Part shown: positions 1 to 64,000 of the stretch, piece by piece
Numbering within the stretch: position 1 is the stretch's first letter
Layout: each line of letters starts with the position of its first letter
NCBI RefSeq assembly: GCF_052857255.1
Contig: NC_135497.1
Location: forward strand, 119,240,744-119,304,743
Direction: 5' to 3'
DNA: 64,000 bases
DNA from: Amblyomma americanum
Taxonomy: Eukaryota; Arthropoda; Arachnida; Ixodida; Ixodidae
Notes under the pieces: generated by a model
Database searches by the model: none
Told to the model about the DNA's origin: nothing
What the model saw: only the letters and a program-made list of their open reading frames with translations
Translations under genes and position numbers: made by a program

Positions 1-224
1 CAAGCCCAAGCGCACTACACAGCGACCCCATGAACGCAGTCCCTGTATGCATGAGCGGTGGCTTTCCCGCACAGACTGGAACATGATTGCGGACCTTCGC
101 GCAACTCTGCTCCCAGCGAGAGCATATACAGGAACACTGGCTCATTCACGCACGAACCGGCAATTCACAAACAGATTTTCTACACCATATACCAGAAACC
201 GTTGAACGCCAGGCCCGACCTATC

Positions 225-31339: not shown

Positions 31340-32285
31340 TGGAGAAACCCACAAATAGAACTCAATGCAAATCCCTTGGCGTTCGCACCAAACGAGAATA
31401 ATACTGGCAAAGATAAAGGGAGCCCTAACCTGGAGAGAGGGACCTCCAGGTAAATATTTCTCTGAAGTGCGAACCTTGGGCAGTAGAGGAGAAAATGGTC
31501 TAAAGATTAAACTTTCCCAAATGCGTCACATAGGTTCGTCGGTGTCAACGCACACCTGCATAGATATAAATTCAAACTTGGAATCCTGCACCGCAACCGC
31601 GTCATTGTTACCTCACACAGTCTGGATTTACACGAACGGACATTCCAATTATATGCTAAGTGCTGATAGTCAGTGGTATTTAGTAAGGGATCTCGTAACC
31701 TGGCTGATATATGTAGGAACCGCTGAAACCTGGAAATCGCCAGCAGGCTGAAATTCGGGACGGGATGTGTCACTGACCCGTCAAGAGCCGACCTTGCTAA
31801 GTAATCAGCCACCTCATTTGAATGAATACCAGCATGGCCAGGGACCCAGACAATACGGACCACCTTCAAAGTGCTTGGGACAATAAATCGCAGGATGCGG
31901 CGCAAAAAATCTTCTTGTGAAGTGTCAAGGGAGACTAACACCGACAAACAATCAGCGAGAATAATAACATGAGACACATAGCATGGAATTTTGTGAAGGG
32001 CCATTCCAAGAGTAAAAAATTCCGCAAAGAATATAGGAATATAATCTGGGATGCGGACAGAATAGCTCCATGCCAAATCCTGCGAAAAGATGCCAACTGC
32101 AGCTTTTTGGCAGTTGAAATTTTTTTTTCGCGCGTAACTTCGTCTTCCTTCACTTCGGCTTCGTTTTTTTGCGTGTTTGCTTTGTCGCAGCCACTGCGTG
32201 GTTGATCGACTGCTAATCTTTGAAAGCCTCCACGTACCTCCTGCTGGAGTACAATTATAAATTTGAATCATATTGAGCACTTCTT
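31340..32285 (-). pseudogene. LINE RNase H and C-terminal knuckle remnant
   Basis: The minus strand keeps an open frame (32280-31507) with FFAEFFTLGMAL and VVRIVWVPGHAGIHSNEVAD, the end of an RNase H domain (P-G-H-x-G core), then EVTMTRLRCRI and, in the next frame, DHFLLYCPRF. The N-terminal part and the 5' end are missing. Typical tick LINE of the RNase H-bearing type. Confidence 0.75.
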
Positions 32286-33694: not shown

Positions 33695-34494
33695 TTACAT
33701 GCAACACGTTGCGGCTACGAAGCACGACCAGTCTTGCGCGAACCGTACCCGGTCAAGATTTCTTTTGGCATGTTCCACAACAAAAGTTTCCGTTTTTCTG
33801 AGCGTGCGGTTCATGGCACGTGGTCTTTGACGAAGAGGACGAAGCGAAGCAAGGCGCGCCTTTTTGCAGAGTTTTTGTTCGAAATTTTTTACCGTGTTCT
33901 CTCTGTGTGTGAGCCGTTTTTGTATTCCAAATGATTCAGTTATAGCCTCATTTTTATTTTCTTTTGCCGCCGTTTTATGCCGTACGCTGTTACGCAGAAC
34001 ACAGGGAAAGCGATTTTGGCCGCAGCTAGGCGGCGGCGTGCGTAGAAGAGGAAGAAACGCATTCCGGAAGCATAGCGCGTGGCTTCTAGAACCACGTCGC
34101 CTTAAGCCAGCTGCTGACGGCCGCCGTATGCTGAGGGCTACCAGGAGAGGCGAAGTCAACCCTAGATGAGACAATGTAAGTACACCTGACGTCGAGCACT
34201 GCGAAAGGACACCGCTCTAAGCATGTGAGCGCGTTCGTGCTTTCTCCTCCGGCAGGTTGGCGGGCGAGTCAAGGTGGCGAGCCTACTTGAGCATCCTGTT
34301 ACAAGCCGTATCGTTGGTTCTGCTCGTCTTTGCTTGTTTCTTTCCTGTCAGGGTATTCTCAGGTGCGTGGCTTTTTATTCATGCGTTTCTTTCGATGAGA
34401 GAATAGTTTACTCTTGTTTCAGTGCGCGCTGCAGGGTCTGCAGGCATTCTTCGTGGCATTTGAGTTGCTGCGGCTACATACCGCGAGCTGTGTG

Positions 34495-35614: not shown

Positions 35615-35792
35615 ATTCAAGCTGCACTACGAAAGCACTGGTTGATGATGTACTCCGTTGTTACGGTGCGTTTAAAGATGGAGTTTTCCGGAGAGACGAC
35701 GTAGACAGTACCATCTCTAGTGATCCAATGTTGAGAAATTTGACATTCTCTTCGCACTATCTGGACACCGGCAAGAAACTGCATGAGTGCAT
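35615..35792 (+). CDS. Giant gene exon B0
   Basis: Acceptor cggcag|at, donor at|gtgagt. CTTKALVDDVLRC, then a C2-C3 loop about 18 residues longer than in the other B exons; C3 in HEC. First module exon I can place. Confidence 0.75.
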
Positions 35793-38700
35793 GTGAGTAT
35801 CTGAAGTTGCACCACTGCGGAGAGCGTTAAGGGCAGTAGTGCGGTGTGGTGTGGAGTTTAACTTTCCGAAGCTTCACATGGGCTATGAGGGACGCCGTAG
35901 TTGACAGCTCTGAATTAATTTCGACCACCTGACGTTATAGAACGTGCACTGCCAACACACAGTGCACGGGCTCTTTAACTCAACAGCGTTACTACCCTCA
36001 TGTCGGGAAAAATTGTCCGGCGTTTAAGGCCTCGCAGCCGGAAAGGCCAGAGCACGAAGATGAAACGTAGCGCCTGGCCAAATTGGTCACGTGGCCTTGC
36101 GACGTCATTACAACCTGCCCACCGGATAGTGAGCAAACTACCCACCGTGGCAGGTGGCAGTTAAATGAAACGTTGGTTGCGAGAGGTTGCTCACAAGCTC
36201 ACCTGCGTCTCACAAGCAGGTGGCTGTGCTTGAAACAGCCACCTGTCGGGGCAGTGGCTCATCGCTTAACCGCTGCAGCACTGCGCCAGGAGTGGTATGA
36301 GGACTCACAGGGACCTATGAATGTAAAGTAGAGAGTAACCATTTCCGCATATGTAGGCATTAATTAATTAGCTTTATTGCTTCAGACTCTTATTGCGGAG
36401 GTTAATTTTTTTTTCTATTTCGCCGCAGCAGATGGCATTTGATCCCGCGGCCTTGGGCTCAGAGTTGAATGCCAAAGCTACAGAGTAACCGCGCTGAGTC
36501 AAAGACATTAATTCAGTAGTGAGGAATTACCTTTAGTACTTAGTGCTAAAACGACAGGATGGTTCCACTGTTTTCGTGCTTTGCACTATTGCAAGACTAC
36601 TGTAACTGGTGCGAGCTTGAGACCGTAGCGGTTTCTATCAAGGTAAAGTGCTTTCAGGTGTAGTGATGTCATTCATTCAGTGAGAAAGAAGCGTTAGGAC
36701 CTTCCTTGTGAAGCTAAGTTTATCTCGTATTGTTGACAACTAACCGTGTGCCTCCGCTTGGCTTTTGTCCTGTTCGGTGCATTACATGAGATGTTCCTCT
36801 GCCTGCAGACTCCTCAGTTCGTACGGCGAGTGCATTCGTGCGATCGCGGAAGGTCGGTGCCGGTCCCACATGACGTTGTTCCAGTACGAGGAAGTGCAGT
36901 CTTTAGCTGCGAACCTGGTGGGATTCGTCAACAGCAGCTGCAAGGCGATAGAAGTGTACGGTAAGGCTGCCACCGTGCCCACGCGCAACTCTGACACACT
37001 TGAAAAACAAACGGAGACCAAATGAAGGCGACAGTGAACCTTTTGTACCATACCTTCGTTTTGTTCATCGCAGTGCTGCACGCAGTTGTTTATTGTTTTT
37101 TTTTACTTCAGAAAAGCAAGCTGCAAACGGCACCGACAGTCTGTCCGGAGTGAAGAAATGCCTCGTAATACTGGCCAAAAAAGTGGTTCCTTTCCTGGGC
37201 TCTGAAAACAAGGACGTCGTCCGCAAGGCTTGTTGGTGAGTTAGCGTCTCCTTCCTTCGGTCACCGCGCTCGAATGCGGTTTTTCTTCCTGTCTTTGGCA
37301 ACCTGGGCAATTAACGCGACAGCGTTAAAGGCCCTGTTCCCCTGAAAGCGCGGCGTCGGGGTTGTGATCGAAAAATCACGGGCACAGCTCTAGCAGGTGG
37401 TCCCCAGAGAGCAACCTAGGAGGCAGGTGGGCCACCTACGTCACGTGACCTTGCGGCGCCATCACAACCTGCCCTCCGGATAGTGAGCAAACTGCCAGCC
37501 GTGACAGGTGGCAGTTAAATTAATGATTGAACGCTCAGGAAGAGCAACCTGGGCCCCACAAGGCCCACCGCTGGGAGCACCTGCCATCGCAGGGCAGTGG
37601 CGCATCGCTTAACCTCTGCACCAGTGCGACAGGAAGGGTATGAGGACTCCCAGGGATCTATGAATGTAAAGTGGACAATGACCTTCTGTATATATGGGAA
37701 TTAACTCATTACGCTATCGCGTCATACCCTTAAGGCGCAGCTTAACTGTCCGCTCCAATTTTTTTTACTGCCCTGGTGGTCGAAATTATTCCGGAGCCCT
37801 CCACTACGGCACCTCTTTCTTCCATTCTTATTTCACTCCCTCCTTTATCCCTTCCCTTACGGCGTGGTTCAGGTGTCCAACGATATATGAGACAGATACT
37901 GTGCCATTTCCTTTCCCCACAAAAACCAATTATTATTATGCCCTTTCGAAATCAGTTTTAACTTAGATACAGTTGTGACAAACAAGAGTTGCAAATGTTC
38001 AGTTGCTTGATTTCCTGCGTCTCGTTCGTGTTGTACAATGCCTCCCGAACAGAGCTAGTAACACAGGCACTTTTCCTTGTTTTCCCATTGCGCCACTGTG
38101 GTGCCCTTTCAATTGGTGTCGTTCACGCGATGAATGTTGACTTAACTACTAGCAGGCCACTGTTAAATGGGAACACCACCCAAGAGGAAACGCAGCAGTT
38201 TGTCTGCGCACCATACTGCCGCCCGCACAGTAAATGGCACCTCGCTCAAGCCCCCTGTTACAACTTTCGCTTGAACGAGTATATTTTCACGTCTGCTACT
38301 CCACCAACAAAAAATAAAGCCCGCTACCCCTCTTATGCGCGGTATTTCGGGTGCAGTCTAACCAGAATGCACCGAATTCAAAGTGGATCGCAAATTAGTT
38401 GGCTGGTCAATCATCTGGTGCATCAAAACAAACTGGTCCAAGATTAACGGAAATTTGCTGAGTGCCTTTGTAGAGTGTCTATGGTCACGGTAGACGTGTC
38501 TTTGCGGACTATCGTATCCAAAACCTCCGGAGTTTCGAGCCCGACATTTCAGCACTTTAACAGAAGCGAGTGCTCGTTTGCAAGATCGTACCGTCGCCTC
38601 GTAGAAGTGCGCGCCAGCGATCGGCGCGCGCTTCTGCCTTCGATGCGCTTCCGTTGGGAACGGGCCTGCGCTTGAAGAATCCCCGCACTGTGAACGCGGA

Positions 38701-41700
38701 TAGCGTTAGGCGGCCCTGAAAATGCCACCCAAGCTCACGGGGCCATCCACCTGCCCAGCTAGTGAGCTGGACAGGTGGATGATTTGTCTCTCCCGGTGCG
38801 GGTGCTCTAGAAGAACGGCAGATTGGGCGAGTTGGAAATGCTCCATAATATTAAAGCAGCGCTAAGCAACAAGGACGAAGAAAGAAGGGAACGCACACAC
38901 AGCGCCTGTGTGTGTGTTCCCTTCTTTCTTCGTCCTTGTTGCTTAGCCCTGCTTTAATATTGAGGAGGGCTTGAAGGGGGCGGAAATGGTCTGTTCTGTA
39001 CAAGGTATCTGTAGAAGCCTGAGAGTGGAGTCCTAGTGTTGCTTTGTATAGCGTATTGAGGGCCCGAATTAGTTTGTCTTGTTGTGTGCCTGTGAGGGGG
39101 CAGTAAGGGATGCAGTTTAAGAAATTGTTCAGGGCCAGCGCTTTAGCAAGGCGGCTGGCGTGTGTCTTTGGGAGGCCGGCATGACTGAGCGGCGAAGTGT
39201 GACTGAGTGGCATGCACGCATGGCCGTATTAATGGCTGAGGTGAGAGTGTTGGAGGTAACGCGGCAAGAGTCGACGGAGGGGATGCGCTGTCCGACCAGG
39301 GTGAGGAAGATGGAGGGGTTCATCGTCCGTTGATATTTTACTGCGTGTTATGAGTAGGAGTTCAGATTTCTCCGGAGTGGGTTGCAGGCCCGCTTGGGAG
39401 AGGTGTGTGGAAATGGTGTTAAGTGCCTGTTGTACACGAAAAGTCAAGGATCCAGCGACGAAAATAACGCTAAGCTTCTTCGCTTGTTCGGGGCAATCTG
39501 TCATCATCGTTGCGTGCGGTGTAATTGTGAGCACCTCGCCGAGCCCAAAAGTTACATGTAGAAACGTCAAATCGCCGGTGCACGCTGCACTCTCCACACC
39601 AAACTATGAAGCACTCTTTAATGATATGTTGAAGTACGAGTGTCGGCAGTAATGCAGGTAACGTTGACGTTTTTGTTCCAGTAAAGTTCATAGCATTAAC
39701 TGTTACGAGAAATGTGCCGCATTGCTAATTTACACAAGTTAGCTGCAGTGACGTCAATGCCGGTATTGCAGTACACGTTGCAAAACGTCGCCGACGGTAA
39801 TTCGGTCATTCCAATGGAAGCTCTTTCTGGGGTCTGTTGTCCTTACTCAGTCAGCTTGCCATGCTCAGCGCAGAAGATCAATGCGTTCGCATTCTGGCAT
39901 CTCGCAGGGGACTCGCGGACTACGACAAATGTGCGCAAAGAGAGGTCAAAATGATTGACAAAGACTCACTGTCTCTGGAATCCGAAAAGTTAGTTAACCT
40001 GTACTCCACAAATGTTGTGCAGTCACTGCGTTGGACATGTTTTGGTGAGTACGAAGGTATTTTCTACGCACGCCTTCTCTGCGATTTTAAAGCTAAACCA
40101 TTTTTTTTGCACAGATAACAACTGCGACAATGCGTCACTCTTAATGAAACTGGACAACTGCGACAGTATAATTAAGATTGGTGTTTTGCCAAGCATAAGG
40201 ATGAGCAACTCAACGGGTCTAGTGAAAGCCTGCAGGTAATGCTGTTACTTTAGCCTTCAAATTCATTTCCCTTTCTTTCGGGTAGGGTTAGTGGCGAAGA
40301 CACTCATCAATATCTTAAGAGAATACATGTTGCCTTGTTTTGCAGCTACGTTAAAAAGTTTGAGTGGTGCATCAGACAAGCACGGATCGATACCGGCTGC
40401 GATAGCGACCCTTCGGTGCTCAGTTCTTTAGAAGTTCAGCGGCATTTAGACAAAGCGTCCGAGTACGCTTGGATATGTGACCGCAGTGGCGGTAAGTGGC
40501 AGTCTGTTTTATTCACGTCTCAGTTCTAATTCCTATGGTCCTCTTTATCTCCCAAGAATAAGCAGTGGCGACATCATTTCGACGTTTTCACGTTACTTTC
40601 GCTATATCTTCAGGACCAGTCTGCGAGGAAGCTTACGTAAGGGAGAGCCTCAAGGATTGCTATCAGCTTGCCAACCCGTCAAGTTTTGAGCTGGAATCGT
40701 CGTTTGTGAGTGCAGACACGCTGCATAAGCATTGCAGGTAGGGATAGTGTTAATCTCAGGCGTGGCTAATGTGTTACTGAATAGCGGTGGTTGTAGCGCA
40801 TGCTTTCTTCTTTTTTTTTTTCAGAGACGTAAAGGCCTTCAAGTCTTGCATGCACGACATACTTTCGACGAAATGCGAGAACGACCCAAGGATGTTTCAC
40901 CATTGGGACGTGTACTACTTCAGGGACCTCATAGGAAGAGGACTGAATTGGACTTGCTTCGGTGAGTGCGAAACGCAGCCTGAACGGTGCTTGCCGCGTG
41001 CCAACCGAATGTGGCGCTTTTTAGGACTCGGCAAGTTCAGAAAACAGACACAATGTTTTTCTTTAATTTTTGATGGCAGCTGCAGAGGCATGCCATGCAC
41101 CTTGCATGGCTCCGCTAGAATATTTCAACGCCGAAGTGCGAAATCGATTTTTGGTTACCTACGACAAGTTGTCAGCATGCTTCGTACACACATTTGTCGA
41201 AGTTCAGTTTGTGAGCCATAGCGTGCCCCCTTTTCGTTAGTGATTTCTAGTCTTTTCAGGAATGTTCCACGTAAACATGAAAACGTTTGCGCTTCATTTC
41301 AGAGTATGACTGCGATGCCAGCGTGGTTTTGGGAAAACTACGAGACTGTGATAAACTCTCCGAAGAAGCGGCCACATATGTGGACAACACCTGGAGAACT
41401 GGTCCGTCATCAGTTGCCTGCTGGTTAGTATCAATTTATTTTCGCACGTTAATTATAACAATGCCGAGTTCTGAAGGCACACTTGCCGCCGGAGCACTCT
41501 CAGCGAAGATGCGAGCTACGGCGACCAAAACTACATAGCAACGTCACTACCGGTAAAACGATTCTAAACGGATGTGATGAGGCCTTTATTGAAATGAAAC
41601 TCAATCTGTACAGGTAATATCTTTTTTTTACATGCAGGCTTGCTCATGCACATATGAACTGCTACAGTAAAGTGCTGAACGCACTCTGCGGGAACCCGAA

Positions 41701-44700
41701 GGAAGCATTGCAAGACCAGCGGTTAGCCAAATACACTGCTGATGCCAGACAACGAGCACTGCGTTCTTGCGAGAGACAAAACGGTTAGTAAAGTTTTCAC
41801 TTCATTTTCAAGAATACTTAATATCCTCTTTTTTTTGGCGCAGTGACTTCATGCAACGAAAGAGACCTCCTACAAAATCTGACCACGTGCGATGGAATTG
41901 TGGACACGTTTATTGTACCCTACTCGAAAGACGCTTCTGACTTGAACAAAATGGCTACCGCATGCATGTGAGTGCCGTTTTGTTTTCTTGTATCCGGTTG
42001 AGGAAACTGTATTTCGACAACATTGAGGAGTCAACGCTTCTCATAGTGCCGAATTGTACATCTAATGAACACCGACGGCTAGAAGATTGTGCTGAAGAAG
42101 TCGCTGATACGTAGACCGAAAAAATTGCCTCTGAAACAAAATTCCTTTCACAGCACTTGAAATTATTTCTAGTACAGTTTATCGTACTAAACAATTTATT
42201 TTCTTGTGTGTGATAGAGCTTTTGCTCGCAATTTTCATAGTTTACCTTTTAATGCCGTGTCCAACTTGGTCGCAACACCAACCGGTCGTGACCAAGGGCC
42301 TCATTCGAATAGAGGCCACCTTGCTGTACCGCGTTCGCACAGAGTTAGCACGAACTCCAGTATGGCGCTTTAAGCTCGGACAGTGACGTGGCGCACTATC
42401 TGTTGAAATGCCCTGACCTGCCTATTATAGAATCGCGTTCTCTTTCGTGGACTGAGACGTCGAACTGCCCCGCGTAATTCCCTGGATGACACGCTGTTAG
42501 AATTTAGACCTTCGACGCTGATAAGAGAGGTTGCTCTATTCCCCCTTGCCTTTATTCGTGACGCTGAATCCGGGACGAGGGATGACACTCAGCTTCGTTA
42601 CTTGAGTGCGCTGCGTGGCGCTGGCGGGGGGTGGGGGTGGGGGGGGGGGGGTGCATAGATATGCCAGCATACATCGGCTTCGGCTTGCATATTTGAGTAA
42701 GGTTTGCCATGACAATTCATTCCTTTTACAGGCGGCGCTCAGGCAGTGCGATTGTCGGCACTCTGCAAGGCTAACACCGTCGGTTTCAAACTCTATACAC
42801 TTCCCTTCACAATCTCTCAAACTTGTCACAAACCCTTCTACATCCTTTTCACTTTTGCAGTCGAAAACGCTCAGGAAAGCCTATTTCGATGCTTACTGCT
42901 TAGATAATAGCCCTCAATGATTCAGGTTTTGTATTGCGCCTTTAAGAGCTCGCAACTAGACACATTCACTGCAGGCATCTGATAAATAACGCGTACACTC
43001 GTGTAAAGGTCACACTTTTTTTTCGAGATTTTTACAGGGTGCGCCGTTTATACGAAAGGTGCATTTTTTGCTCAGCTTTTCCGACTATAGTGAAACCCAA
43101 ATTATGCGCACAAAATTTGTGCAACGACACGTATTTTACGACAAACTAGCGCGGTGCCCGGCGCACCCTTCTTAAAGATAATGCATATATGCATTGAAAG
43201 TCTGGGTGATACCACTGATACGACGACCGGTGGGAAGTCACTGCCACATAATCGCAAAGCCTCCGCTTGATTGTTCTAGGCGCAGCTTGAACGGAACGAG
43301 GCGTCGTCGGCATTATCGTCCCTTGTGTTGCAGGAAGCTTTCATCGTCCGGTAGCTCCGCGCGGAACGTATCGCGTGAGGGAAACTGTGCATACTTGAAA
43401 CACAATTTCTATTTGCCGACTTATTTGCCCAACTTACCGGCTGTCAAGTTGGAGGAAGCGGCCATTACGTGGACGCGCCTCCGTAAACTTATGCATGCCA
43501 CGATGAGAAGGCGTTGCAAACGCTGTCCACGTTGTCTCTGCAAAAAAAAAAGTTATACTTTTAAATGGTACATGAAGTCATGAAGCCTGCTAATGTTCAG
43601 CTAGGAGAAGTCGCTCGCCAAGGTTTTGTTTTGCAGGAGCAGACTAGAATATTTTTGTAATAGATCAGTGAGATGGACAGTGTAATATTTCAGATTGATT
43701 AAACATACGTACAATACTCTTGGAAAAGAGCTCTAGGATGATTTAAATGTTCTAACGGGCTCTAGTTGTTAGTTCAAGAACATACCTCTTGAAAACAAAG
43801 GTAAATTTCACTGTCGCGTTAAAGATTAGCGCTAAAACCCCCATCAAAATTATTTCGAAGCCTGGTTTCGGCGATTGCGCTCATGAAGGCTGGAGATGCA
43901 ATAATATTCATGTTTCTTTCATTCAGAAACGTGAAGCGATTTCAAAAATGCGTCCACAAGGTTGCCCAAAAAGAATGCTTCGAACCGGATGGCATCGAAC
44001 TGGTTGGCACACAGAAGTACCTTCGAGAGTATTACTACCAATACAACTGGATCTGCAGAGTCGTTGAAGTGACGCCATCTGGTCAGTCTCAGCCTCTGTT
44101 TGTGTATCATTATGCAAGTCAGTACATATTTCGATATATTCATTGGCGGGTATCCTGTGACTCGTGCTCCTGACACTCTTTATCTTCGCTTGTCTCGAAT
44201 TCTCAGTTGAGGACAAGCCCACTAATTCATAGCGTTGCCTTTCCCTAGCCTGTTTCAGTCAACAATGTAATTTTTTAACAACGTAAACACACTCACGGAA
44301 CGTTATTCTGGATTGTGTAGTTGTAAATTAGTGTGATCCTTATTCTGTGTTCTTCTGCGCTTGGCCTCCGTGTCAACACTAACGCGATTAGCGAACTACT
44401 CAGGTTTTTAAAAGCGACTGTTTAGTGACGAAGATACTGTTGCGTGCCTAAAACGTTATCTACATCGTGTGCATATGTGATTAGGTTATAAGAAATTTCG
44501 TATTTTTTACTCTCGAAATCCTACATGGGGTTTGTGGGGGGGAGAGTAGCTGCCTTTGACAAGACGCTGTGGAACACGGCAGTTTCACAAGATAGACCTT
44601 TTCGCCATAGTAACATTGGACTGGTGCAGGGTCCAGGCCCTACAGCAAAGTAGCCATCGAGACCCGAGATGAACAGTGAGTGACGTGAACGAATGCGCGA

Positions 44701-56700: not shown

Positions 56701-59700
56701 GCAGCTCTTCTCGCCTAACAGCCACTTATACTTGGCGCTGATGTTGTCGCACCTCATTTCAGGCACCTTCTGCCGGGAAACCGAACTTATTAAGAACCTG
56801 TCTCACTGCAACGGCTTCCTTACATATAAAGTCCTCCCAAATGTCGTCGATAAGCATCACTACGGAAAACTACACATTGCCTGCAGGTACGTGGCCTTGA
56901 ATCGCACATTCTTAGTGGACTTTGGCTTTTATACCGCATATAAAGCCGCACATTGCATAACTTGTTCTCAACAGAGGCATCAGAAACTATCAGAAATGTC
57001 TTGACTACACCATCGACATGAAGTGCAGACACAGCAAGATTTTATCGAAGAGCAACATCTGGGAACAAATATCCAAGGGTTACCAGGAGTTCAAGTGGGC
57101 TTGTGACGCGGCCTTACCAGGTAATAATAAGGATAAAAAAGCCGGCACGACCGTCTAGCTCGACGTAGCCTACTGCTTGCATTTGAAGGCATTTTTGATG
57201 CGTTTTTTATAATATGCACAGATGCGGAATGCGACGAGCAGAAGTTGGAAGAGAGCCTAAGTGAATGCGCAGGGATCATTGAGTACGATGTGAAGCCTTA
57301 CAGCGATAACCCCAAGGACAAAGAGCGAATCAAGACAGCTTGCATGTAAGTTCTTACATGAATCGTTTAATTACACTCACTCTCTAAACAACCACACAAA
57401 AATCTTTTCAGGAATTTGAGAGAGGCACAGAACTGTGCTAAGCTGGCCATGTTTCAAGTATGCGACAACCTAGCTATGCCGGACACTGCCAACATAAAGA
57501 AGCTTCTGTACCGAATCATTCAGAAGTACAACTGGACTTGCGCCCTGGCCCTGGATTATAAAGGTATTTGAGGCTAAGATTTATCATTTAACGCAACAGC
57601 GTTAAGTGTTCCCCGTTCGGCGTTAAACCCTGCGTTGTAGTCGCCGGCGTTGTTGTGTGGAGAAAATACGGATTGGCGAGAGGGTCGTGACGTCACAGCC
57701 ATATAACCTCGCGCGGGTAATTCAAACAGCCCGCAGCGATCACAGTGCTACAGTGATGACGTCGCTACACAATTCCCCATTGGTCTAATGGGTCGTAATA
57801 TTCCACCACCATTACGTAGTACCCCTGACGAAAGAAAAGCAGCTATGCGGAAAAGAAAAACGGTCGAGTCAGGAATTGAACCGCCGCCCCTTGGGTCGTG
57901 AGCCCCGGGCGCGGTACCCCTTGACCGCTGAGAAACGTTCGATCGACTTGGTTAAAGGGAAGCGCTGTGTGTCTTGCGGTAAATAAAGAAAAAAATTAAA
58001 ATAAATGAAGAACAGTGTCCAAAGCGATACGCAAAGAGGACCTTAGACCGCTGAAGGGAACCATTAACGCTATTGCGTCATAGTTTCAAAGGCAGAGCTA
58101 AAGTCTGCCTCGAATTTTTGAATGTGGCTTAGTCATGTAACTTAGAAATCTGAGCAGTTATAACTTCAATGACTGGCACTAGCAGCATTTGGATTCAGTG
58201 TAGTTTAAACGGTTCATACTACTAGCCGAGTAAAATAACAGGACGATTCCAATGAGAGAAATTAGAGATCTTAAATATTTGGCATGAAGGCTGCGAGTAT
58301 CGCGTCTGTTACGACTGAAACGCGCAGCGATACACTCTCTGACATGCCCAAGCCAAGCAAAATGCGCGTCTTTATATTAAGTTCGTAACTTACTCTCGGG
58401 CATGAGTTTTTTTTTCTGTCTGAAGGAAGCTATAAATACCTCGCAATTAGCCAAGCAAGGCTAGGTGGGGAGCGTATTATATTATCTGTTTTGAAAGAGC
58501 CTAAGAGATAGCGAAGGCTGGAGGCTTGCATCATTTTTACTTTATCCTTTTTATTATTTTCTGGCACCAAGCTCAAACGATCTGCGACAAGTCAAGTATC
58601 TTGGAGAACATAACGGAATGCTTTGGTTTCATTACTGTGAGCCTGCCAAGCCAGTTTCATTCTTCTGGAAGCCGTCGTTCTGAGTCTATGTGCAGGTAAG
58701 TCCACGGCTATTTTTCTGAATTCGAGGATGGTCCTCATCTCCCGCCTCCTTATTTCTCGTCAAACAAAAGTCACTACCAGGACTATAGGCGCTGCATGGC
58801 GGACAAGATTACAAGCGCTTGCCAGACGTATGACGATCTCCTGGAGCATCCCGATGTCGTCAACGCCACAATCGGTGCTGTGGCAGTCGTCAAGACCGCT
58901 TGCTCAGCGAAGGTTTCCTCAGGTAGGCTGGCTGCCCTGAGCCTATTTTATGGGTGGTTTTTGCCATGTAGATGCTAGTGTTTCCCACCAGCAAGTGAGT
59001 TGCACGAAGGTTGTTCAATAAGCTTTGCCTCCTGGATTGTCACGTTTGTTATCAAGAGAAAGTATTGAAAGATTTCCGAAACAAAAGCTCTCAGTAATGC
59101 AGTGCGCCTTAGGGGTGAACAGTCAGCCGCCCTTATTTTTATGCAACGGCGTACAGACTCTAATGCATCGGTTAAGGGGGTGGGGGGACTGCGCCGGTGG
59201 AGTCTCTATCGAAAGCGACGTGCTCTTAGAAGAGAGAACATTTTAAACCTCCATTTCACAGCGACATCTTAAAGTACAGGATGGAAAACTTAACTGAACA
59301 GCTGTCCTAATGCATTTCAGTGGTGATCAGTTAGTTCTCCGAAGCAGGATCGTCCACACGAAATACTTACGGATCTGAATAGTAAAAGAATGATAAGAGA
59401 TAAAAGGTTCAAGTGTTATGTTGTAGCCGCCCAGTAATGCGTACGGGGAGGACAATATTGTACACAAATTCTAATTCGCTCGATGCCCCAGTTTTCGATT
59501 GTAAGCTTTGACCGATTAAAGACCAGTTAATTTCCAACACTTATTTAATATAAATTACAGTGCAGCCATACTTTGTCTGAAAGCGTGCAGGTTTGGAGGC
59601 AGTAGTAATCCTGTGGCCTCCGTATCATGGCGTGCGCTGCCAGCGCCACGGTGTCGCCGAGCTTCTCCCTCGCTGGGGTTAACCTGAGGTCGGAGGGTAT

Positions 59701-62700
59701 TAACTTCACAGCATAATGAAAAAGCGTTCAATGATACGGCTGTTTGCTACAATACTATGTGCAAGAGATTTTTTTTTTTTGACGGGGCTCTCTCAGTAAA
59801 CAACATTGTAAAGAGTGACAGCTGAGACCGCTGCCATTCCCGCACTCACAACGCAATATCTTAATTACCAAGAACGCACGACTGCAAGCGTACTCTCGGT
59901 GGTTGTCATGTACTGTGTTCGGGTCGGCGACTCGTACTGTGAGCAAAACCCCGTAAACTTAAGCATGGAATACTTCTTTGCTTCCTCACGCTGTTCTGTT
60001 CGAAAATTACGTAAATAATGTATTAATATTGCAGCATCGTATTAAGAATCCTTGTTACCCCAGCTTAAGGCTCAAAGCTGAAAGCCGGGAGCCACCTATG
60101 AAAGGCCTATTAAAATGAACAATGTTGCCTCTACGAAAGAACTGGCAGCGATAGCTATGAAGATGAAGACATGATGTCATTTTCATACTGAAATTGCGCG
60201 ATTTACAGGAAGCCTGTGCTCGACGGCCAGCTTACGGAAGCAGTACACGACGTGCATGGCCTATTTGAGAAAGTACGCCATTCCTAGGATACACGACTTG
60301 TCAAGCCCAGCGAACTTGAAGATAGGCTGCAAGTACGTTTTTTTCTTCTTTCAGTTCTCTCTGCAAATTTCAGGCAAGAGAACAAGCACGTATATGATTG
60401 TTACCATTTTTTCGTGCATTTTTATCTGCTCCTGCCATACAGCCTCATGCAAGGCGGCAGTATATGCAAATAAATAAAATAATGGTATTGCGTTTTAGGT
60501 ACCTCGAAAATTACAAGAAGTGTTTGGCCCTGAAGACTGATATATCGTGCACCAAGCTGAGAAACTGGGAGAACAACCCTGTGAAACGCCATTTCGAGAG
60601 GCCATTCGAAACGTTTGAGACACTCTGCAGTGCAGGTAACAGTAGCAAAGCAAAAGGGCAGAAGGGTACATTCCTCTTCAGGTTCATTACATGGTTGCTC
60701 TTCTATTCCAGAGGCTCACTGTGAGCCCAGTAACATCGTTAAGGAATTTGAGCAGTGCAGCGGGATACTGCAGTACAATTTAATCCCTTTTTCATTGGAC
60801 AAGAGAAACTCCGAGCGACTCCAGGTGGCTTGCTCGTAAGTGAGCCCTTTTGTGCAATTTATCTTTTTTTTCGCTTATCACGGCGTTCAACACATTGCGT
60901 GCGTTCTGCTTTCAGAGCGCTGCATGCCTACCAGCAGTGTCTGGCAGTTAAATTATCACCTTGCGAGGCACGACCAGGGGTTGTTAATAATTTGGAAATA
61001 AAAAAATATACTGTGAACACAGTTGATCAACACAAATGGGTATGCGACTACGTGCCCAAGGGTAAGTGCTTTGGAAAGAATGATTTTTCTTTTTTTTCTG
61101 TGTGTGGTTGTGAAGTAAGGTTTTAACTAAAGAGGCTTTTTCATAATTAGGACAGAAGTATAACTTGGCCTTTACTCGATTTTGACCAACTCATGATACA
61201 TTTCACTTTTTTTTTACATGAAACACATTATCCAATGTGACAGTTTGATGCTAGTATTACAAGCTTTTCACTGCTTAAGGATATACACTCATTAGCCAAC
61301 TTCATGGCGTGTAGTCAAAAGTAGGAGGCTGGAACTGAACCTCATAACCCCACCGCTATGTGGTTATTTATTATCTAGCGAACACCGAGCGCGCGATATC
61401 TACTGCTTGCTTCTTCATTTTTAGCCAGGCGTTCTGTTCTGCTTATTTATTATCATCTCCATTATCTGGTGTCCTGCCATTATCCCTGTCCTGTGCCTAG
61501 GCGCTTGCTTATCAGTGGTTAACAACGCTGTACCTTTAATGCGATGGCATTAGGAGGGGAATGAAGGCGACACCTGTCGGCGGGTTCGGTGGCATCGGCG
61601 TCGTCGTGAAGCCTCCACCTGACAATTGTCCCCCTCTCCTGCTCCTTTTCTCCATTTGTGGGGGAGACGAGAGAGGCTCGGGACAACGAATGACTCGGCA
61701 AAAATGAAACTAAGTGCCTCAGCAAAAATGAATAAAAGAAGAGATCACGAATACGATTGGAATCATAATATAATCAGAATTATAATGTAATCGCAGTTTA
61801 AATAGATTGGAAAGCCAAAAGAAAATGCTATCGAGGTGGTCTTAATTTTAAAGTGATGTGTACGGACATTAGAGCGCAAGAAAGCTGGTGTATGGAGGCG
61901 ACTAAATTCCTTAGCGATAGACCCAGGGTCTGTCTGTCTGTCTGTTGTTGCCAGGAAGAAAGAAAAGGAAAGTGCACAGGCCTGCCCACTGGCTCAAGCC
62001 GAGCCACAATCGCTACCACGTGCAGATAGTAGGAGGGTTCAAAGATGGGATTGAAAGACAGGATAGTAAAGACGCGCGCTATAAAGACCAAGGCCGATCC
62101 CGGAGGCAGTGCAATACCAGGCCAACCGGTGGCGGAAGTGAAGCAACCTTCAAACTCTCCGCCACATTTCCAAAAATAAGCCCAATGGGGACCCGTAACA
62201 GATATTTTACGGGGTCCCTATCTGCTATAGACCCAGGCTTATGCTTTATGATGCAGCTAGCTATTTTTGTGCAACATTGAACAAATGACCAAATTAGTTG
62301 TACCACCTGTGAAGAGTGCAACCGTGGCCTTTAGGACTTTATTCTATAAATAAACGTGGGGGCTATGAAACAGGCCACCTGTAAGGCGAGAACGGTATGA
62401 CAGAGCAAAACATCGCCAGGTAGCTTGCATAATGAAAACATTAAACTCTGCTTGAGGTGTGTGTGTGCGAAGGAGAGGGGCGATAAATTAGTCATAACTG
62501 TAGAACACATATGGCTGTGTGTATCCTTTCAAAATAACAGTAGAACTTACAGTTGCTTTCGGTTTCTTCAAGATGTGGTGTTATCCACTTCTTATTTCCT
62601 TTAAAAATACCTTACCTCTGAATTACATTAATAGCCGTAATATTCAATGACTATTGTTACTTTAGGTTGGTTGAAAACTGCTGTCGAATGTGAAGCATTT

Positions 62701-64000
62701 GTTACATGTTTTACCTATTGACCTCTTCCAGCAATTTGCGAAGAAAGTGAGGCGACAGCCATGTTTCAGGACTGCTTTAAGTACCTTGCAAACCACACAC
62801 GAAAAACTCTGGCGACTAATGGACGAAGCAAAGCGCGCTACTTCGAAAGCATGTGCAGGTAGGTGGTCGCGTATCCATTTGGTCATTTCTTTCTTTCCTT
62901 ACTACGTGAAGCTAAGCTGCTTGCTTCCCCCCCTTTTTTAGTGACGTGAAGGCTTACCAGTTCTGCATCCATTCCGCCATGGAAACTACATGCAAGCAAA
63001 AGCGGTTGATATCGGAGTCCAGCAAAGTAAGAATGTTCACAAGAAACTACTTCAACCTTTACAACTGGAGCTGCGATCTTTTCCTCGGAAATTATGCGAA
63101 GCTTGACAACGTGTATCCAAATAAAGGTGCGTATTACAGAAGGATAAGTTTACGCGTAAGCTTGAGAGGGGGGCGATGGAGGGGCACCAGTTTTTTTTTT
63201 CATTATACTTTTGCTACCATGCAGCAACATACTCCGCATCTGGAACGCTGCTAAATTAGATAGTGCATGTATTCGTTCAAGTGCATAACATTTTTTTAAC
63301 GTTTTTCTATATCGGTTGTCAGCTCACTATATGAAAGTTGTATAGATGGGCAAGAAAAGTAACGGAGAGACTCGCACACAATAACGACATATTTTTTTGT
63401 CGACTAAATGTACGTACGCTTCGCGCATTTAGCGAAATGTCTTAGAGGCTCACACACATAATGACATATTTTCTTTGTCGACTAAATGTACGCTTCGTGC
63501 GCTTAATGAAATGGGTGGGACGCTTCTCATTCCACCCTGCTGTCATAATCTTTCAAATCTGTTGCTTTTTTTTTTTGCTTCCTCTCACTTCTTGGTGTAA
63601 TCGGCGCTAGCAAAGGTGCGCTGCACGCTGCAGACTTAGTCACGAACAACCTCTTTTTTATTCCACATATTCCCGCAGAGCAAGCTTGCACGAAAGCAGG
63701 TCTTCTGTCGGCACTCAACAGTTGCACCGGTTTCTTGCAAGTTCGTGTGTACCCTAAGCTGGACAAGTTCCCCAGTGACACCGAATTGTCCGACGCCTGC
63801 AGGTACGAATAATGTTTCAAAGTGGAGCTGTGGTGGGAGGCAAAACTGCCTTATTCTCTCAAGGTGCTGCTGCTGAAACGATCGTATTTTTTTCATTGCA
63901 GTGGCCTCGTGGATTTTCAGTACTGTTCTACAATGCAGATTCACAAACAGTGTGTAGGTCGCAGTCTACAAGTGCTTCAAGACCCTGATATCCTTTTCTT
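35615..64000 (+). CDS. Giant gene: at least 24 tandem six-cysteine modules (right end outside the window)
   Basis: Forty-eight plus-strand exons alternate strictly B, A, B, A from 35615 to the window edge. Every B length is 1 modulo 3 and every complete A length is 2 modulo 3, so all junctions keep frame (B enters phase 1 and leaves phase 2; A the reverse). The placed exons total 6,538 bases, about 2,180 residues. Each module is about 85-95 residues with C1-x11-C2, about 22-24 residues to C3, about 8 to C4, x7-9 to C5, about 27 to C6. Conserved residues include a Leu pattern before C2, G-F-I after it, A-C-[KRS] at C3, Y-Q-x-C-V at C4 and Y-x-W-T-C at C6. Sequons occur at C6 (N-W-T/S) and C2 (N-L/I-T/S). 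The protein must be secreted; its signal peptide and C-terminus are not established. Modules lacking a cysteine are B1, A2, B6 and A7. Large introns hold transposons. Microplusin-like by cysteine order only; no function is proven. Confidence 0.85.
35793..36808 (+). mobile_element. Intron with SINE and TIR-element fragments
   Basis: A reverse SINE fragment (35878-35975, ggctatgagggacgccgtag) is followed by a degraded copy (about 35978-36385) of the element at 37.3 kb: shared words include atagtgagcaaact, ggcaggtggcagttaaat and atgaatgtaaagt. Confidence 0.65.
36809..36960 (+). CDS. Giant gene exon A1
   Basis: Acceptor ctgcag|a, donor g|gtaagg. YGECIRAIAEGRC; C6 is in NSSC rather than W-x-C. 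Confidence 0.78.
37112..37235 (+). CDS. Giant gene exon B1 (C1 lost)
   Basis: Acceptor acttcag|aa, donor tg|gtgagt. Ala stands at the C1 position; C2 in GVKKC and C3 in RKAC remain. N-G-T sequon. Confidence 0.78.
37315..37721. mobile_element. TIR element, GCGAYAGCGTTA ends
   Basis: Left end CGCGACAGCGTTAA (37315) and right end, reverse complemented, CGCGATAGCGTAAT (37721). No coding frame; a MITE-like element in the B1-A2 intron. Confidence 0.7.
37770..37880 (+). mobile_element. SINE 3' fragment
   Basis: The words ccctggtggtcgaaattattccggagccctccactacggc match the 3' body of the 33.45-kb SINE family. Confidence 0.65.
38736..38788. repeat. Short inverted repeat
   Basis: ccatccacctgcccagct pairs with agctggacaggtggat around agtg; preceded at about 38692 by a GCGGATAGCGTTA word recalling the TIR-element ends. 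Confidence 0.6.
38847..38961. repeat. Near-perfect 115-bp palindrome
   Basis: Two 56-bp arms (38847-38902 and 38906-38961) are reverse complements with only two mismatches and a 3-base spacer (cgc). The arms contain aacaaggacgaagaaagaag and a CACACACAG tip. Confidence 0.92.
38935..39600 (-). pseudogene. LINE reverse transcriptase fragment
   Basis: The minus strand reads QQALNTISTHLSQAGLQPTP followed by EKSELLLI (thumb-side RT motif A-G-L-x-x-x-P-x-K-S-E-x-L), then VGQRIPSV and, in other frames, ALALNNFLNCIPYC and KLIRALNTLYKATLGL, as in tick LINE ORF2. Frameshifted. Confidence 0.75.
39908..40044 (+). CDS. Giant gene exon A2 (C5 lost)
   Basis: Acceptor ctcgcag|g, donor g|gtgagt. YDKCAQREV has C4 but no C5 eight residues on; LRWTC gives C6. 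Confidence 0.8.
40115..40235 (+). CDS. Giant gene exon B2
   Basis: Acceptor gcacag|at, donor ag|gtaatg. CDNASLLMKLDNC and VKAC. Two sequons. Confidence 0.83.
40346..40491 (+). CDS. Giant gene exon A3
   Basis: Acceptor tttgcag|c, donor g|gtaagt. FEWCIRQARIDTGC (x9) and YAWIC. Confidence 0.83.
40614..40737 (+). CDS. Giant gene exon B3
   Basis: Acceptor cttcag|ga, donor ag|gtaggg. VCEEAYVRESLKDC and HKHC; lacks the G-F-I motif after C2. Confidence 0.82.
40825..40961 (+). CDS. Giant gene exon A4
   Basis: Acceptor tttcag|a, donor g|gtgagt. FKSCMHDILSTKC and LNWTC (sequon). Confidence 0.85.
41080..41207 (+). pseudogene. Orphan, degenerate B-like exon
   Basis: After acceptor atggcag|ct a phase-1 frame reads TYDKLSACFVHTFVEVQF, resembling the C2 region of B exons (K-L-x-x-C-x-x-F-x-x-x-V). 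The consensus-like donor gtgagc follows in phase 0 and the C3 end is absent, so it cannot splice in frame. A4 joins B4 without it. Confidence 0.45.
41303..41423 (+). CDS. Giant gene exon B4
   Basis: Acceptor atttcag|ag, donor tg|gttagt. CDASVVLGKLRDC and SVAC. Confidence 0.82.
41638..41783 (+). CDS. Giant gene exon A5
   Basis: Acceptor catgcag|g, donor g|gttagt. MNCYSKVLNALC; C6 in LRSC. Confidence 0.8.
41844..41967 (+). CDS. Giant gene exon B5
   Basis: Acceptor gcgcag|tg, donor at|gtgagt. CNERDLLQNLTTC (sequon by C2) and ATAC. Confidence 0.85.
41968..43926 (+). other. Large intron B5-A6
   Basis: No exon with the module pattern was found. A purine run (about 42622-42652, nearly all G) is the only notable simple repeat. 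Confidence 0.6.
43927..44081 (+). CDS. Giant gene exon A6
   Basis: Acceptor attcag|a, donor g|gtcagt. FQKCVHKVAQKEC and YNWIC. Confidence 0.83.
44880..45215 (+). mobile_element. LINE 3' end in intron A6-B6
   Basis: Forward frames read RINDIQDEIKRKKSSWAEHV and RRQDNRWSLRVPDSIPREGK, then RWADEVKKF-like residues across a frame change, ending gctgatgatgatgac. This is the C-terminal region of an RTE/CR1-like tick LINE. Confidence 0.75.
45484..45607 (+). CDS. Giant gene exon B6 (C3 lost)
   Basis: Acceptor tttgcag|cg, donor ag|gtaaaa. CNSVRLIDRLPEC then SGFIMG; the end reads TYTR where A-C-R is expected. Confidence 0.8.
46665..46822 (+). CDS. Giant gene exon A7 (C6 lost)
   Basis: Acceptor cttacag|g, donor g|gtatgt. 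YEVCVSMVIRDVC; the C6 region reads LHESVSSK. Together with B6 this module has lost two cysteines. Confidence 0.78.
47232..47355 (+). CDS. Giant gene exon B7
   Basis: Acceptor ttccag|at, weak donor ag|gtttgt. CFHHYVNKKISEC and EEAC. Confidence 0.8.
47709..48045. mobile_element. Fold-back MITE in intron B7-A8
   Basis: The outer arms (gtattctataagctttccattttccattgtc at about 47719-47750) pair with a near-identical reverse complement at about 48004-48036, given here only in part: cagcttatagaatac. Inner words also pair: cattggtcactcagatat with atatctgagtgaccaatg. The element is about 330 bp and non-coding. Confidence 0.85.
48241..48392 (+). CDS. Giant gene exon A8
   Basis: Acceptor tttacag|a, donor g|gtaagt. 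YVFCANRKLNKVC and SWVC. Confidence 0.85.
48756..48873 (+). CDS. Giant gene exon B8
   Basis: Acceptor ctttcag|ac, donor ag|gtaagt. CTKQGLISKLKKC, VGFLF, QETC. Confidence 0.88.
49695..49834 (+). CDS. Giant gene exon A9
   Basis: Acceptor atgcag|a, donor g|gtgagt. YQRCVSDTLNTSC; LYSKYDHLC without Trp. Confidence 0.85.
49925..50048 (+). CDS. Giant gene exon B9
   Basis: Acceptor ttcaaag|tg, donor aa|gtaaga. CEEAALVKNLSQC (sequon), TGYITVNVLP, LNLAC. Confidence 0.87.
50128..50273 (+). CDS. Giant gene exon A10
   Basis: Acceptor tttgcag|t, donor a|gtgagg. FQRCVKMTIPLQC and LYQKYSWTC. Exits with A as the split base, not the usual G. Confidence 0.87.
50369..50492 (+). CDS. Giant gene exon B10
   Basis: Acceptor cgtccag|gc, donor ag|gtgagg. 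CSSEALHKRLPMC, SGFITHK, KLAC. Confidence 0.86.
50567..50718 (+). CDS. Giant gene exon A11
   Basis: Acceptor ttttag|t, weak donor g|gtgatt. YQRCVQGIVSEIC and YYWTC. Confidence 0.85.
50800..50917 (+). CDS. Giant gene exon B11 (GC donor)
   Basis: Acceptor ctgcag|gg. CDKAKLEEALHSC, QGFLITQV, TEAC. The donor reads ag|gcaagt, a GC-AG intron of the standard type. Confidence 0.85.
50918..52322 (+). other. Large intron B11-A12
   Basis: Begins with the GC donor. No module exon or transposon motif was recognised. Confidence 0.55.
52323..52462 (+). CDS. Giant gene exon A12
   Basis: Acceptor atgcag|t, donor g|gtttgt. YNFCQWYLTQEVC; C6 in HRFVC. Confidence 0.83.
52547..52670 (+). CDS. Giant gene exon B12
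   Basis: Acceptor cttacag|ag, donor aa|gtaagc. CNKEGIIQVISEC, SGYMRDYILP, SAAC. Confidence 0.87.
52763..52905 (+). CDS. Giant gene exon A13
   Basis: Acceptor ttttag|a, donor g|gtaagc. YKECVNAATEKIC, LYQKVNWTC (sequon). Confidence 0.87.
52992..53118 (+). CDS. Giant gene exon B13
   Basis: Acceptor ccatcag|gg, donor ca|gtaagt. CNVDEIQMNLTTC (sequon), LGFIDN, KEEC. Confidence 0.86.
53119..54582 (+). other. Large intron B13-A14
   Basis: No module exon recognised; the forward frame at 53.68-53.97 kb shows no known motif. Confidence 0.5.
54583..54734 (+). CDS. Giant gene exon A14
   Basis: Acceptor tttacag|a, donor g|gtaagt. FHDCVKYHTDLPC; C6 in VSEIC. Confidence 0.84.
54942..55062 (+). CDS. Giant gene exon B14
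   Basis: Acceptor gtaccag|at, donor ac|gtaagt. CVKKDLVPKLAEC, YSFIKYKVVP, EESC. Confidence 0.87.
55143..55294 (+). CDS. Giant gene exon A15 (GC donor)
   Basis: Acceptor tttctag|g. YQDCVQTVIKSTC, YNWTC (sequon). The donor reads g|gcaagt, a second GC-AG intron. Confidence 0.85.
55536..55656 (+). CDS. Giant gene exon B15
   Basis: Acceptor tttgcag|at, donor aa|gtgagt. CRKEFLLGNLTEC (sequon), VGFITISVIP, RKAC. Confidence 0.88.
55766..55926 (+). CDS. Giant gene exon A16
   Basis: Acceptor tttcag|c, donor g|gtaaga. FQRCVLSRVLTAC, LYEQYKWVC. Confidence 0.88.
56036..56162 (+). CDS. Giant gene exon B16
   Basis: Acceptor tttgcag|aa, donor ac|gtgagt. CNDMNIVQHLKNC, YPFIAYNVIP, RSAC. Confidence 0.88.
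56556..56692 (+). CDS. Giant gene exon A17
   Basis: Acceptor tttgcag|c, donor g|gtgaga. YQLCINTVLQTC (x7), FSKYNWTC (sequon). Confidence 0.88.
56763..56886 (+). CDS. Giant gene exon B17
   Basis: Acceptor atttcag|gc, donor ag|gtacgt. CRETELIKNLSHC (sequon), NGFLTYKVLP, HIAC. Confidence 0.88.
56975..57120 (+). CDS. Giant gene exon A18
   Basis: Acceptor caacag|a, donor g|gtaata. YQKCLDYTIDMKC, YQEFKWAC. Confidence 0.87.
57222..57345 (+). CDS. Giant gene exon B18
   Basis: Acceptor gcacag|at, donor at|gtaagt. CDEQKLEESLSEC, AGIIEYDVKP, KTAC. Confidence 0.88.
57412..57563 (+). CDS. Giant gene exon A19
   Basis: Acceptor tttcag|g, donor g|gtattt. QNCAKLAMFQVC, IQKYNWTC (sequon). Confidence 0.86.
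57592..58077. mobile_element. TIR element, CGCAAYAGCGTTAA ends
   Basis: Left end CGCAACAGCGTTAA (57592) and right end, reverse complemented, CGCAATAGCGTTAA (58077). Interior has a reverse tRNA-like stretch (gtcaggaattgaacc at about 57870, i.e. box B-like on the minus strand). It begins just 29 bases after the A19 donor site. No coding frame. Confidence 0.75.
58572..58695 (+). CDS. Giant gene exon B19
   Basis: Acceptor accaag|ct, donor ag|gtaagt. CDKSSILENITEC (sequon), FGFITVSLP, ESMC. Confidence 0.85.
58771..58922 (+). CDS. Giant gene exon A20
   Basis: Acceptor acaaaag|t, donor g|gtaggc. YRRCMADKITSAC; C6 in VKTAC. Confidence 0.82.
58923..60208 (+). other. Large intron A20-B20
   Basis: No module exon or transposon motif recognised. 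Confidence 0.5.
60209..60332 (+). CDS. Giant gene exon B20
   Basis: Acceptor tttacag|ga, donor aa|gtacgt. CSTASLRKQYTTC, KIGC. Confidence 0.84.
60499..60635 (+). CDS. Giant gene exon A21
   Basis: Acceptor ttttag|g, donor g|gtaaca. YKKCLALKTDISC; C6 in ETLC. Confidence 0.84.
60712..60835 (+). CDS. Giant gene exon B21
   Basis: Acceptor ttccag|ag, donor tc|gtaagt. CEPSNIVKEFEQC, SGILQYNLIP, QVAC. Confidence 0.87.
60916..61061 (+). CDS. Giant gene exon A22
   Basis: Acceptor tttcag|a, donor g|gtaagt. YQQCLAVKLSPC (x7), HKWVC. Confidence 0.87.
61062..62731 (+). other. Large intron A22-B22 with repeat debris
   Basis: Contains low-copy-looking repeat words (gcgatggcattagg at about 61540, a gtctgtctgtctg run at about 61930, and ggaggcagtgcaataccagg at about 62102). 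None could be assigned to a family with confidence. Confidence 0.45.
62732..62858 (+). CDS. Giant gene exon B22
   Basis: Acceptor ttccag|ca, donor ag|gtaggt. CEESEATAMFQDC, ESMC; lacks the Leu pattern before C2. Confidence 0.82.
62942..63126 (+). CDS. Giant gene exon A23
   Basis: Acceptor ttttag|t, donor g|gtgcgt. YQFCIHSAMETTC, YNWSC (sequon), then the longest post-C6 linker of the array (about 20 residues). Confidence 0.83.
63679..63802 (+). CDS. Giant gene exon B23
   Basis: Acceptor cccgcag|ag, donor ag|gtacga. CTKAGLLSALNSC, TGFLQVRVYP, SDAC. Confidence 0.87.
63902..64000 (+). CDS. Giant gene exon A24 (cut by window end)
   Basis: Acceptor attgcag|t. FQYCSTMQIHKQC; the C6 part lies beyond the window, so the gene continues. 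Confidence 0.85.

Follow-up and report, generated by a model that had tools for sequence, protein, structure and literature searches.

Organization of the locus

The window analyzed here is a 64-kb stretch of the Amblyomma americanum genome (C1:119240744-119304743 in a 2.56-Gb assembly of 429 contigs); together with the 150 kb to its right it forms a 214-kb stretch that was examined on the plus strand, and all positions below are counted from the window start. Between positions 35615 and 64000, chaining of open reading frames (ORFs) and splice sites yielded 24 exons of one type (A) and 24 of another (B) in strict alternation. The A exons have a phase-1 acceptor and a phase-2 donor, the B exons a phase-2 acceptor and a phase-1 donor, and one exon of each type makes up a module of about 90 residues (Table 1). 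Forty-seven of these exons lie wholly inside the window and the 48th (63902-64056) crosses its right edge; counted to base 64000, exons beginning within the window supply 2,176 codons. A preliminary description of the window had reported 48 exons alternating from position 35615 without a gap in type or phase, about 2,180 residues of coding sequence and an array still open at the edge, all of which our analysis reproduces; the start of the gene has to be moved upstream, to a predicted leader, and the figure of at least 24 modules proved to be an understatement.

Past the window edge, the array continues for another 100 kb and 78 modules up to a stop codon at 163939. The full predicted model consists of 203 exons encoding 102 modules and 9,322 residues (1,058,971 Da, or ~1.06 MDa, with 604 cysteines), and spans ~130 kb, about a quarter of which lies in the window. 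The exons comprise two leader exons, 99 A exons, 99 B exons and three intronless modules in which the A and B halves share one exon. The chain, assembled by a program that admits open exons only, contains no phase breaks and a single stop codon, at the end. The 202 predicted introns have a median length of 99.5 bases (the longest is 7,957 bases), with 198 GT donors, four GC donors and AG acceptors throughout. Long introns lie at 94251-97287, 107214-115170, 117298-123889, 147338-151147 and 153948-157722. The sole run of N in the 214-kb stretch (169780-169879) lies outside the gene. Because the introns on both sides of each module are in phase 1, skipping of entire modules would leave the reading frame intact. 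Taken together, the array looks like one gene with about 200 predicted exons for a secreted, probably membrane-anchored protein built of six-cysteine modules.

Several parts of the model were set by hand, namely the two leader exons, the first A exon, which is long and had been excluded by the length penalty of the chaining procedure, the exon 162121-162281, chosen by judgement over the program's 162196-162281 and yielding six cysteines, and the terminal exon, which was extended to the stop codon. In modules 99-102, many exons have scores of just 0-5 bits and were accepted for their splice sites and cysteine spacing.

Table 1. Predicted features of the locus, in positions counted from the window start, and database relatives, in modules of the array
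Feature	Position or extent	Strand	Remarks
Leader exon 1, 3' end	34166-34175	+	inferred, placed by hand; last bases AT
Leader exon 2	34256-34362	+	signal peptide MLAGESRWRAYLSILLQAVSLVLLVFACFFPVRVFS; acceptor 7.1, phase-1 donor 10.0
Module 1	A 35615-35792, B 36809-36960	+	
Module 2	A 37112-37235, B 39908-40044	+	lacks Cys1 and Cys5
Module 3	A 40115-40235, B 40346-40491	+	
Module 4	A 40614-40737, B 40825-40961	+	
Module 5	A 41303-41423, B 41638-41783	+	also P0001
Module 6	A 41844-41967, B 43927-44081	+	also P0001
Module 7	A 45484-45607, B 46665-46822	+	lacks Cys3 and Cys6; also P0001
Module 8	A 47232-47355, B 48241-48392	+	also P0001
Module 9	A 48756-48873, B 49695-49834	+	also P0001
Module 10	A 49925-50048, B 50128-50273	+	also P0001
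Module 11	A 50369-50492, B 50567-50718	+	also P0001
Module 12	A 50800-50917, B 52323-52462	+	GC donor CAG/GCAAGT on A; three database models break here, P0005 crosses
Module 13	A 52547-52670, B 52763-52905	+	also P0003
Module 14	A 52992-53118, B 54583-54734	+	also P0003
Module 15	A 54942-55062, B 55143-55285	+	weak donor; also P0003
Module 16	A 55536-55656, B 55766-55926	+	also P0003
Module 17	A 56036-56162, B 56556-56692	+	also P0003
Module 18	A 56763-56886, B 56975-57120	+	also P0003
Module 19	A 57222-57345, B 57412-57563	+	also P0003
Module 20	A 58572-58695, B 58771-58922	+	weak acceptors; also P0003
Module 21	A 60209-60332, B 60499-60635	+	also P0003
Module 22	A 60712-60835, B 60916-61061	+	also P0003
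Module 23	A 62732-62858, B 62942-63126	+	also P0003
Module 24	A 63679-63802, B 63902-64056	+	extends past window edge
Intronless module	77654-77923	+	A and B halves in one exon
Intronless module	98774-99034	+	A and B halves in one exon
Intronless module	106342-106605	+	A and B halves in one exon
GC donor, A12	after 50917	+	
GC donor, module 33	after 70289	+	
GC donor, B48	after 89424	+	
GC donor	after 144437	+	
Paralogue	26876-30506	-	signal peptide ORF from 30506 (MRPLYALLLAIAVAASNA...)
Paralogue module	A 29242-29104, B 28457-28324	-	
Paralogue module	A 28022-27893, B 27813-27671	-	
Paralogue module	A 27586-27463, B 27403-27234	-	
Paralogue, further A exon	27029-26876	-	
Paralogue, candidate later exons	18560-18419, 17047-16914	-	uncertain
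P0001	module 4 to 11		R. microplus LOC142775096
P0002	modules 1-11 without 7 and 10		R. appendiculatus MTO96_001389
P0003	module 12 to 48		D. variabilis LOC142566025
P0004	modules 13-51 without 22		R. appendiculatus MTO96_001388
P0005	35 modules between 7 and 56		R. microplus MRX96_010486
P0006	modules 23-48 without 31 and 32		R. microplus LOC142775098

On the minus strand, head to head with the giant gene and with ~3.7 kb between the predicted start codons, lies a smaller paralogue, in which a signal peptide is followed by three complete modules and one or more additional A exons. A whole-genome search with a three-module query gave no match elsewhere below E 0.9. By eye, two further ORFs of the window, 31507-32280 on the minus strand (for example, VPGHAGIHSNEVADYLARSAL) and 14750-15325 on the plus strand, resemble RNase H parts of non-LTR retrotransposons. 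Repeats also occur in introns of the first two modules. Two direct repeats (94 bases with 85% identity, and 105 bases with 82% identity; ~1.35 kb apart, within 36076-36353 and 37430-37696) probably are copies of a dispersed repeat; an inverted repeat in the module 2 intron (38841-38967, with 62-base arms that are 94% complementary and 3 bases apart) resembles a miniature inverted-repeat element.

Exon pattern compared with chance expectation

To test the exon chain against chance, hidden Markov models (HMMs) were built exclusively from exons beyond position 64000 and run on the ORFs of the window. These out-of-window HMMs recovered 19 of the 24 A exons and 20 of the 24 B exons at i-E<0.01 (22 and 23, respectively, at i-E<10), and the only other matches in the window at i-E<0.1 were four exons of the minus-strand paralogue. 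With HMMs trained on the array itself, the chain score over the 214 kb was 8,303 on the plus strand versus 91 on the reverse complement, where the chain comprised 11 exons, six to eight of them from the paralogue. Nearly all A exons (97 of 99) end two bases past the third cysteine codon, where the predicted donor follows. A scan for the cysteine pattern in the control flanks on the plus strand gave one match in the left flank (~33 kb) and one in the right flank (~49 kb). The out-of-window HMMs and the reverse-strand run rule out an array of splice-bounded ORFs that arose by chance.

Termini and glycosylation of the predicted protein

No in-frame ATG is present ahead of leader exon 2 after the last stop codon, and we infer that the start codon is split by an intron (AT/G across 34175/34256, with A at position -3); the donor of leader exon 1 (AAT/GTAAGT) scores 8.7. 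The best 11-residue hydropathy of the predicted leader is 3.0 (3.01), that of a strong signal peptide. At the opposite end, the last exon encodes module 102 followed by a hydrophobic tail ending in DAPAADKGFVPRQISRIVIYLCLAILMAPILFSPFGFQHYL and the stop codon; this tail resembles a GPI-like signal or a transmembrane helix. The continuity of phase and open frame over 202 predicted introns, framed by these N-terminal and C-terminal signals, supports the original proposal of one giant gapless gene.

The predicted protein contains 124 N-glycosylation sequons, compared with a mean of 62 and a maximum of 86 in 300 shuffled sequences, an excess that is expected for an extracellular glycoprotein and suggests heavy N-glycosylation. 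In 24 modules, a sequon immediately precedes the sixth cysteine (for example, NWTC), so that a glycan could occupy the same spot on many of the beads.

Cysteine pattern and evolution of the modules

The median spacing among 93 modules is C-x11-C-x24-C-x8-C-x8-C-x26-C, and 70 of the 97 modules with at least six cysteines carry a tryptophan two residues ahead of Cys6. Exactly six cysteines are found in 96 of the 102 modules, four cysteines in four modules, three in one and seven in the last, where the count includes the tail; none of the 102 modules has five. The four-cysteine modules lack either Cys1 and Cys5 (modules 2 and 75) or Cys3 and Cys6 (modules 7 and 77), and the chance that four random double losses fit one pairing is 0.024. 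These paired losses point to putative disulfides Cys1-Cys5, Cys2-Cys4 and Cys3-Cys6; module 100, which lacks Cys1, Cys5 and Cys6, fits this pairing less simply.

The modules are highly diverged from one another, with a median identity of 22% and a maximum of 41% among the 93 six-cysteine modules. Neighboring modules are hardly more alike than distant ones: the best paralogue lies within ten places for 24 of the 93 modules, compared with a mean of 17.8 and a maximum of 30 in 200 random draws. By contrast, modules 13-48 are 77-97% identical (median 88%), module by module and in the same order, to their orthologues in D. variabilis. The difference between ~22% identity among modules and ~88% identity to orthologues indicates that each module is kept individually, and the conserved order and identity of modules 13-48 imply that this part of the array was complete before the lineages split and that its modules have not been homogenized.

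Affinities of the module

Pfam scans were performed with a three-module stretch, with 26 single modules (bit scores being listed for one of the 26) and with the long relatives described below. The module appears to fit no Pfam family, the neuritin and RGM N-terminal domains being the nearest, weak matches; RGM_N, NRN1, DUF19, CPG4, DUF1397 and DUF7174 are among the weak matches obtained. For NRN1 (PF15056), the best listed score was 20.7 bits (E 4.8e-4, three-module stretch), below the 27-bit cut-off, and two of the 26 single modules matched at E<=1 (best E 0.017). For RGM_N (PF06535), it was 17.7 bits, below the cut-off of 24.2, with four of the 26 at E<=1 (best E 0.011). DUF19 (PF01579) matched three of the 26 single modules (best E 0.0012, bit scores unlisted) and was absent from the matches of the long relatives. 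DUF7174 (PF23796) gave 25.3 bits with P0003 and 21.1 bits with P0004, below its cut-off of 27 and confined to profile positions 116-148 of 153. Among the listed Pfam scores, the only family above its cut-off was DASH_Ask1 (PF08655; 22.9 bits with P0003 and 21.6 bits with P0004, whole-protein cut-off 20.7); here, no stretch reached E<=1 alone, three of the 26 single modules matched (best E 0.009), and we judge the match to be a sum of weak repeats.

We further compared module profiles with individual sequences, among them human neuritin, using hhalign, with shuffles that kept the cysteines fixed and full shuffles as controls. The 26-module profile scored 24.1 against NRN1, above all 120 cysteine-fixed and all 60 full shuffles, and 17.8 against RGMA, above all 120 cysteine-fixed and 59 of the 60 full shuffles. 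The 93-module profile scored 12.1 against NRN1, a value reached by two of 60 shuffles of each kind, and 13.5 against RGMA, above all 60 of each kind. These comparisons suggest a distant relation of the module to the neuritin/RGM helical domain. Microplusin (PDB 2knj) scored at the level of shuffled sequences (32 of 120 cysteine-fixed and 12 of 60 full shuffles scored equally well or better), as did the CC1 and CC3 repeats of RECK, the two that were compared, for which 24 and 43 of 60 shuffles, respectively, equalled or exceeded the real score.

An AlphaFold model from a six-sequence alignment has a mean pLDDT of 52.7; in modules 10-11, block means are 58-86 and each of the two is predicted to form three main helices, and the modules probably are all-helical. 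A fold search of the PDB with this low-confidence model returned nothing significant; with regard to the three-helix folds of GPI-anchored receptors (RGM, GFR-alpha and GAS1), the matches obtained were generic helical ones only.

A predicted giant surface protein and the alternatives

The reading that we favor, with a probability of roughly 0.6, is that a single gene of ~130 kb encodes a secreted, membrane-tailed glycoprotein of 102 helical six-cysteine modules that functions as a cell-surface tether. Under this scenario, the signal peptide would direct secretion of the 102-bead glycoprotein, disulfides would lock each helical bead, the beads would join into a long glycosylated filament, and the hydrophobic tail would anchor one end of the filament to the cell surface through either a GPI lipid or a short membrane-spanning helix. 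The tethered filament might then act as a cell-surface spacer or as an adhesion or tension element, a function proposed by analogy with Drosophila Dumpy, and whole modules could drop out without loss of frame. A more ambitious version, in which a 203-exon transcript of hard ticks produces a hitherto unrecognized, megadalton GPI-anchored filament of 102 neuritin/RGM-type modules, with in-frame skipping generating many lengths and specificities, is at present tentative and, on balance, doubtful.

Three protein searches over three length ranges yielded six relatives, from Rhipicephalus microplus, R. appendiculatus and Dermacentor variabilis (P0001 to P0006 in Table 1), all labelled uncharacterized or hypothetical, none with more than about 40 modules and all without the leader and the tail. 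Together these relatives document conservation in ticks of most of modules 1 to 56. The best database match to the array is the D. variabilis protein, and the median per-module identity to the six fragments is 80-88%. P0001 aligns with predicted residues 387-1046 at 80% identity over 660 residues without gaps, crossing 14 predicted junctions, and the alignment with P0003 shows 86% identity with 17 gap positions in 3,340 columns. Four of the six models skip internal modules. All six seem by eye to begin at internal methionines, and the highest hydropathy among their 40 N-terminal residues ranges from 0.45 to 1.76, compared with 3.01 for the predicted leader. The expectation that gene predictors would miss or split such a gene is borne out by these partial models. 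The accompanying remark that no described tick protein of this structure was known holds for the literature covered: the listings of an open-licence library, queried with five of the six database names (all except MTO96_001389) and by topic, showed no description, but unnamed fragments exist in NCBI.

The fragments break recurrently at two points. At the first, module 11 is the last array module of P0001 and P0002, and P0003 starts in module 12; at the second, P0003 and P0006 end after module 48. Both breaks coincide with GC donors in the A. americanum genome, those of A12 and B48; starts or ends of other models fall at ordinary introns. Failure of gene prediction at these GC-AG introns, whose GC donors are those seen in A. 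americanum, is therefore a likely cause of the breaks, though not the sole cause: the four models that cover the GC-AG intron in module 33 (P0003, P0004, P0005 and P0006) all cross it, so GC donors alone are insufficient to explain the breaks. The fourth GC donor (144437) is outside the region covered by the database models. The odd C-terminus of P0001 was compared with exon A12 read in another frame, and this candidate was dropped given the weak match (E 0.22).

These breaks bear on the strongest rival, an unlikely one in our assessment, that the array is a tandem cluster of several same-strand genes with tens of modules each rather than one transcript. The existence of separate models for LOC142775096 and LOC142775098 and for MTO96_001389 and MTO96_001388, with LOC142566025 holding only modules 12-48, is what such a cluster would produce; moreover, 18 of the 101 B-to-A introns are at least 500 bases long and could hide a promoter, and no model was found that covers or bridges modules 57-102, a region represented among the queries by single rows of a 26-module alignment. 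However, the introns at the two breakpoints, 81 bases before A12 and 411 bases after B48, leave little room for a promoter and a leader, and both points are bridged: MRX96_010486 (P0005) joins modules 11-12-13 as well as 54-55-56, MTO96_001388 (P0004) joins 48-49-50-51, and overlapping models jointly connect modules 1-51. A leader-like N-terminus is found in none of the six fragments. When 39,313 bases of B-to-A intron sequence were scanned for leaders, three weak leader-like donor ends came up in two introns (94643 and 134877), the first of which, between modules 54 and 55, is bridged by MRX96_010486; none was found in 61,152 bases of A-to-B introns.

A clearly less probable alternative is a Dscam-like diversity receptor, in which modules would be skipped in frame cell by cell to give many isoforms, for example, on haemocytes. 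The phase-1 flanks permit any set of modules to be skipped, the modules are mutually diverged and the set of skipped modules differs between database models of the same locus, but these skips may be prediction errors, no clusters of alternative exons are seen in the array, and the one-to-one correspondence of 36 modules in D. variabilis (P0003) suggests that all are normally used. Far less credible still is a polyprotein cut into about 100 small cysteine-rich peptides. The regular six-cysteine units and short linkers (median of 8 residues in 90 linkers) would suit such a precursor; against this, no furin motif is present in the 90 linkers and dibasic pairs occur in nine of them, compared with 9.3 expected by shuffling, which makes a diced polyprotein unlikely, as does the hydrophobic C-terminal tail. 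Least probable of all is a decayed or never-expressed array, to which some weak modules near the 3' end could be ascribed, given the frame open through 203 predicted exons (in a chaining procedure that admits only open exons) and the median per-module identity of 88% to D. variabilis, with conserved order, across modules 13-48.

If the single-gene reading holds, a gene with 203 exons and 9,322 encoded residues, built from a module that is unrecognized by the family libraries tried, would be exceptional in both size and design. The array shows how annotation can divide a single gene into several separate entries, recurrently at GC-AG introns, and provides a case of a long tandem array in which module order and identity are kept between genera with no sign of homogenization. 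As a conserved giant surface protein, it would be worth studying in relation to tick tissue mechanics and to gut or haemocyte surface biology.

Comparison with known modular proteins

In one alignment, all six cysteines of neuritin NRN1 are in register with those of the array module. Proteins of the neuritin and RGM families are GPI-anchored and contain one domain each, in contrast to the 102 modules predicted here. Tick microplusin, an all-helical protein, shares with the array module the six cysteines and the tick origin. RECK is GPI-anchored and contains tandem six-cysteine CC repeats, but their cysteine spacing differs from that of the array modules. Architecturally, Drosophila Dumpy offers a parallel: it likewise is an extracellular protein of enormous size with a great many modules, encoded by 78 coding exons of which all internal ones but one are divisible by three (PMC2930355). 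Dumpy consists of EGF and DPY modules with a ZP domain, whereas the tick array consists of six-cysteine modules. Concerted evolution has been reported for dumpy, as judged from a title in the reference list of the same article (PMC2930355); in the tick array, by contrast, the modules diverge independently.
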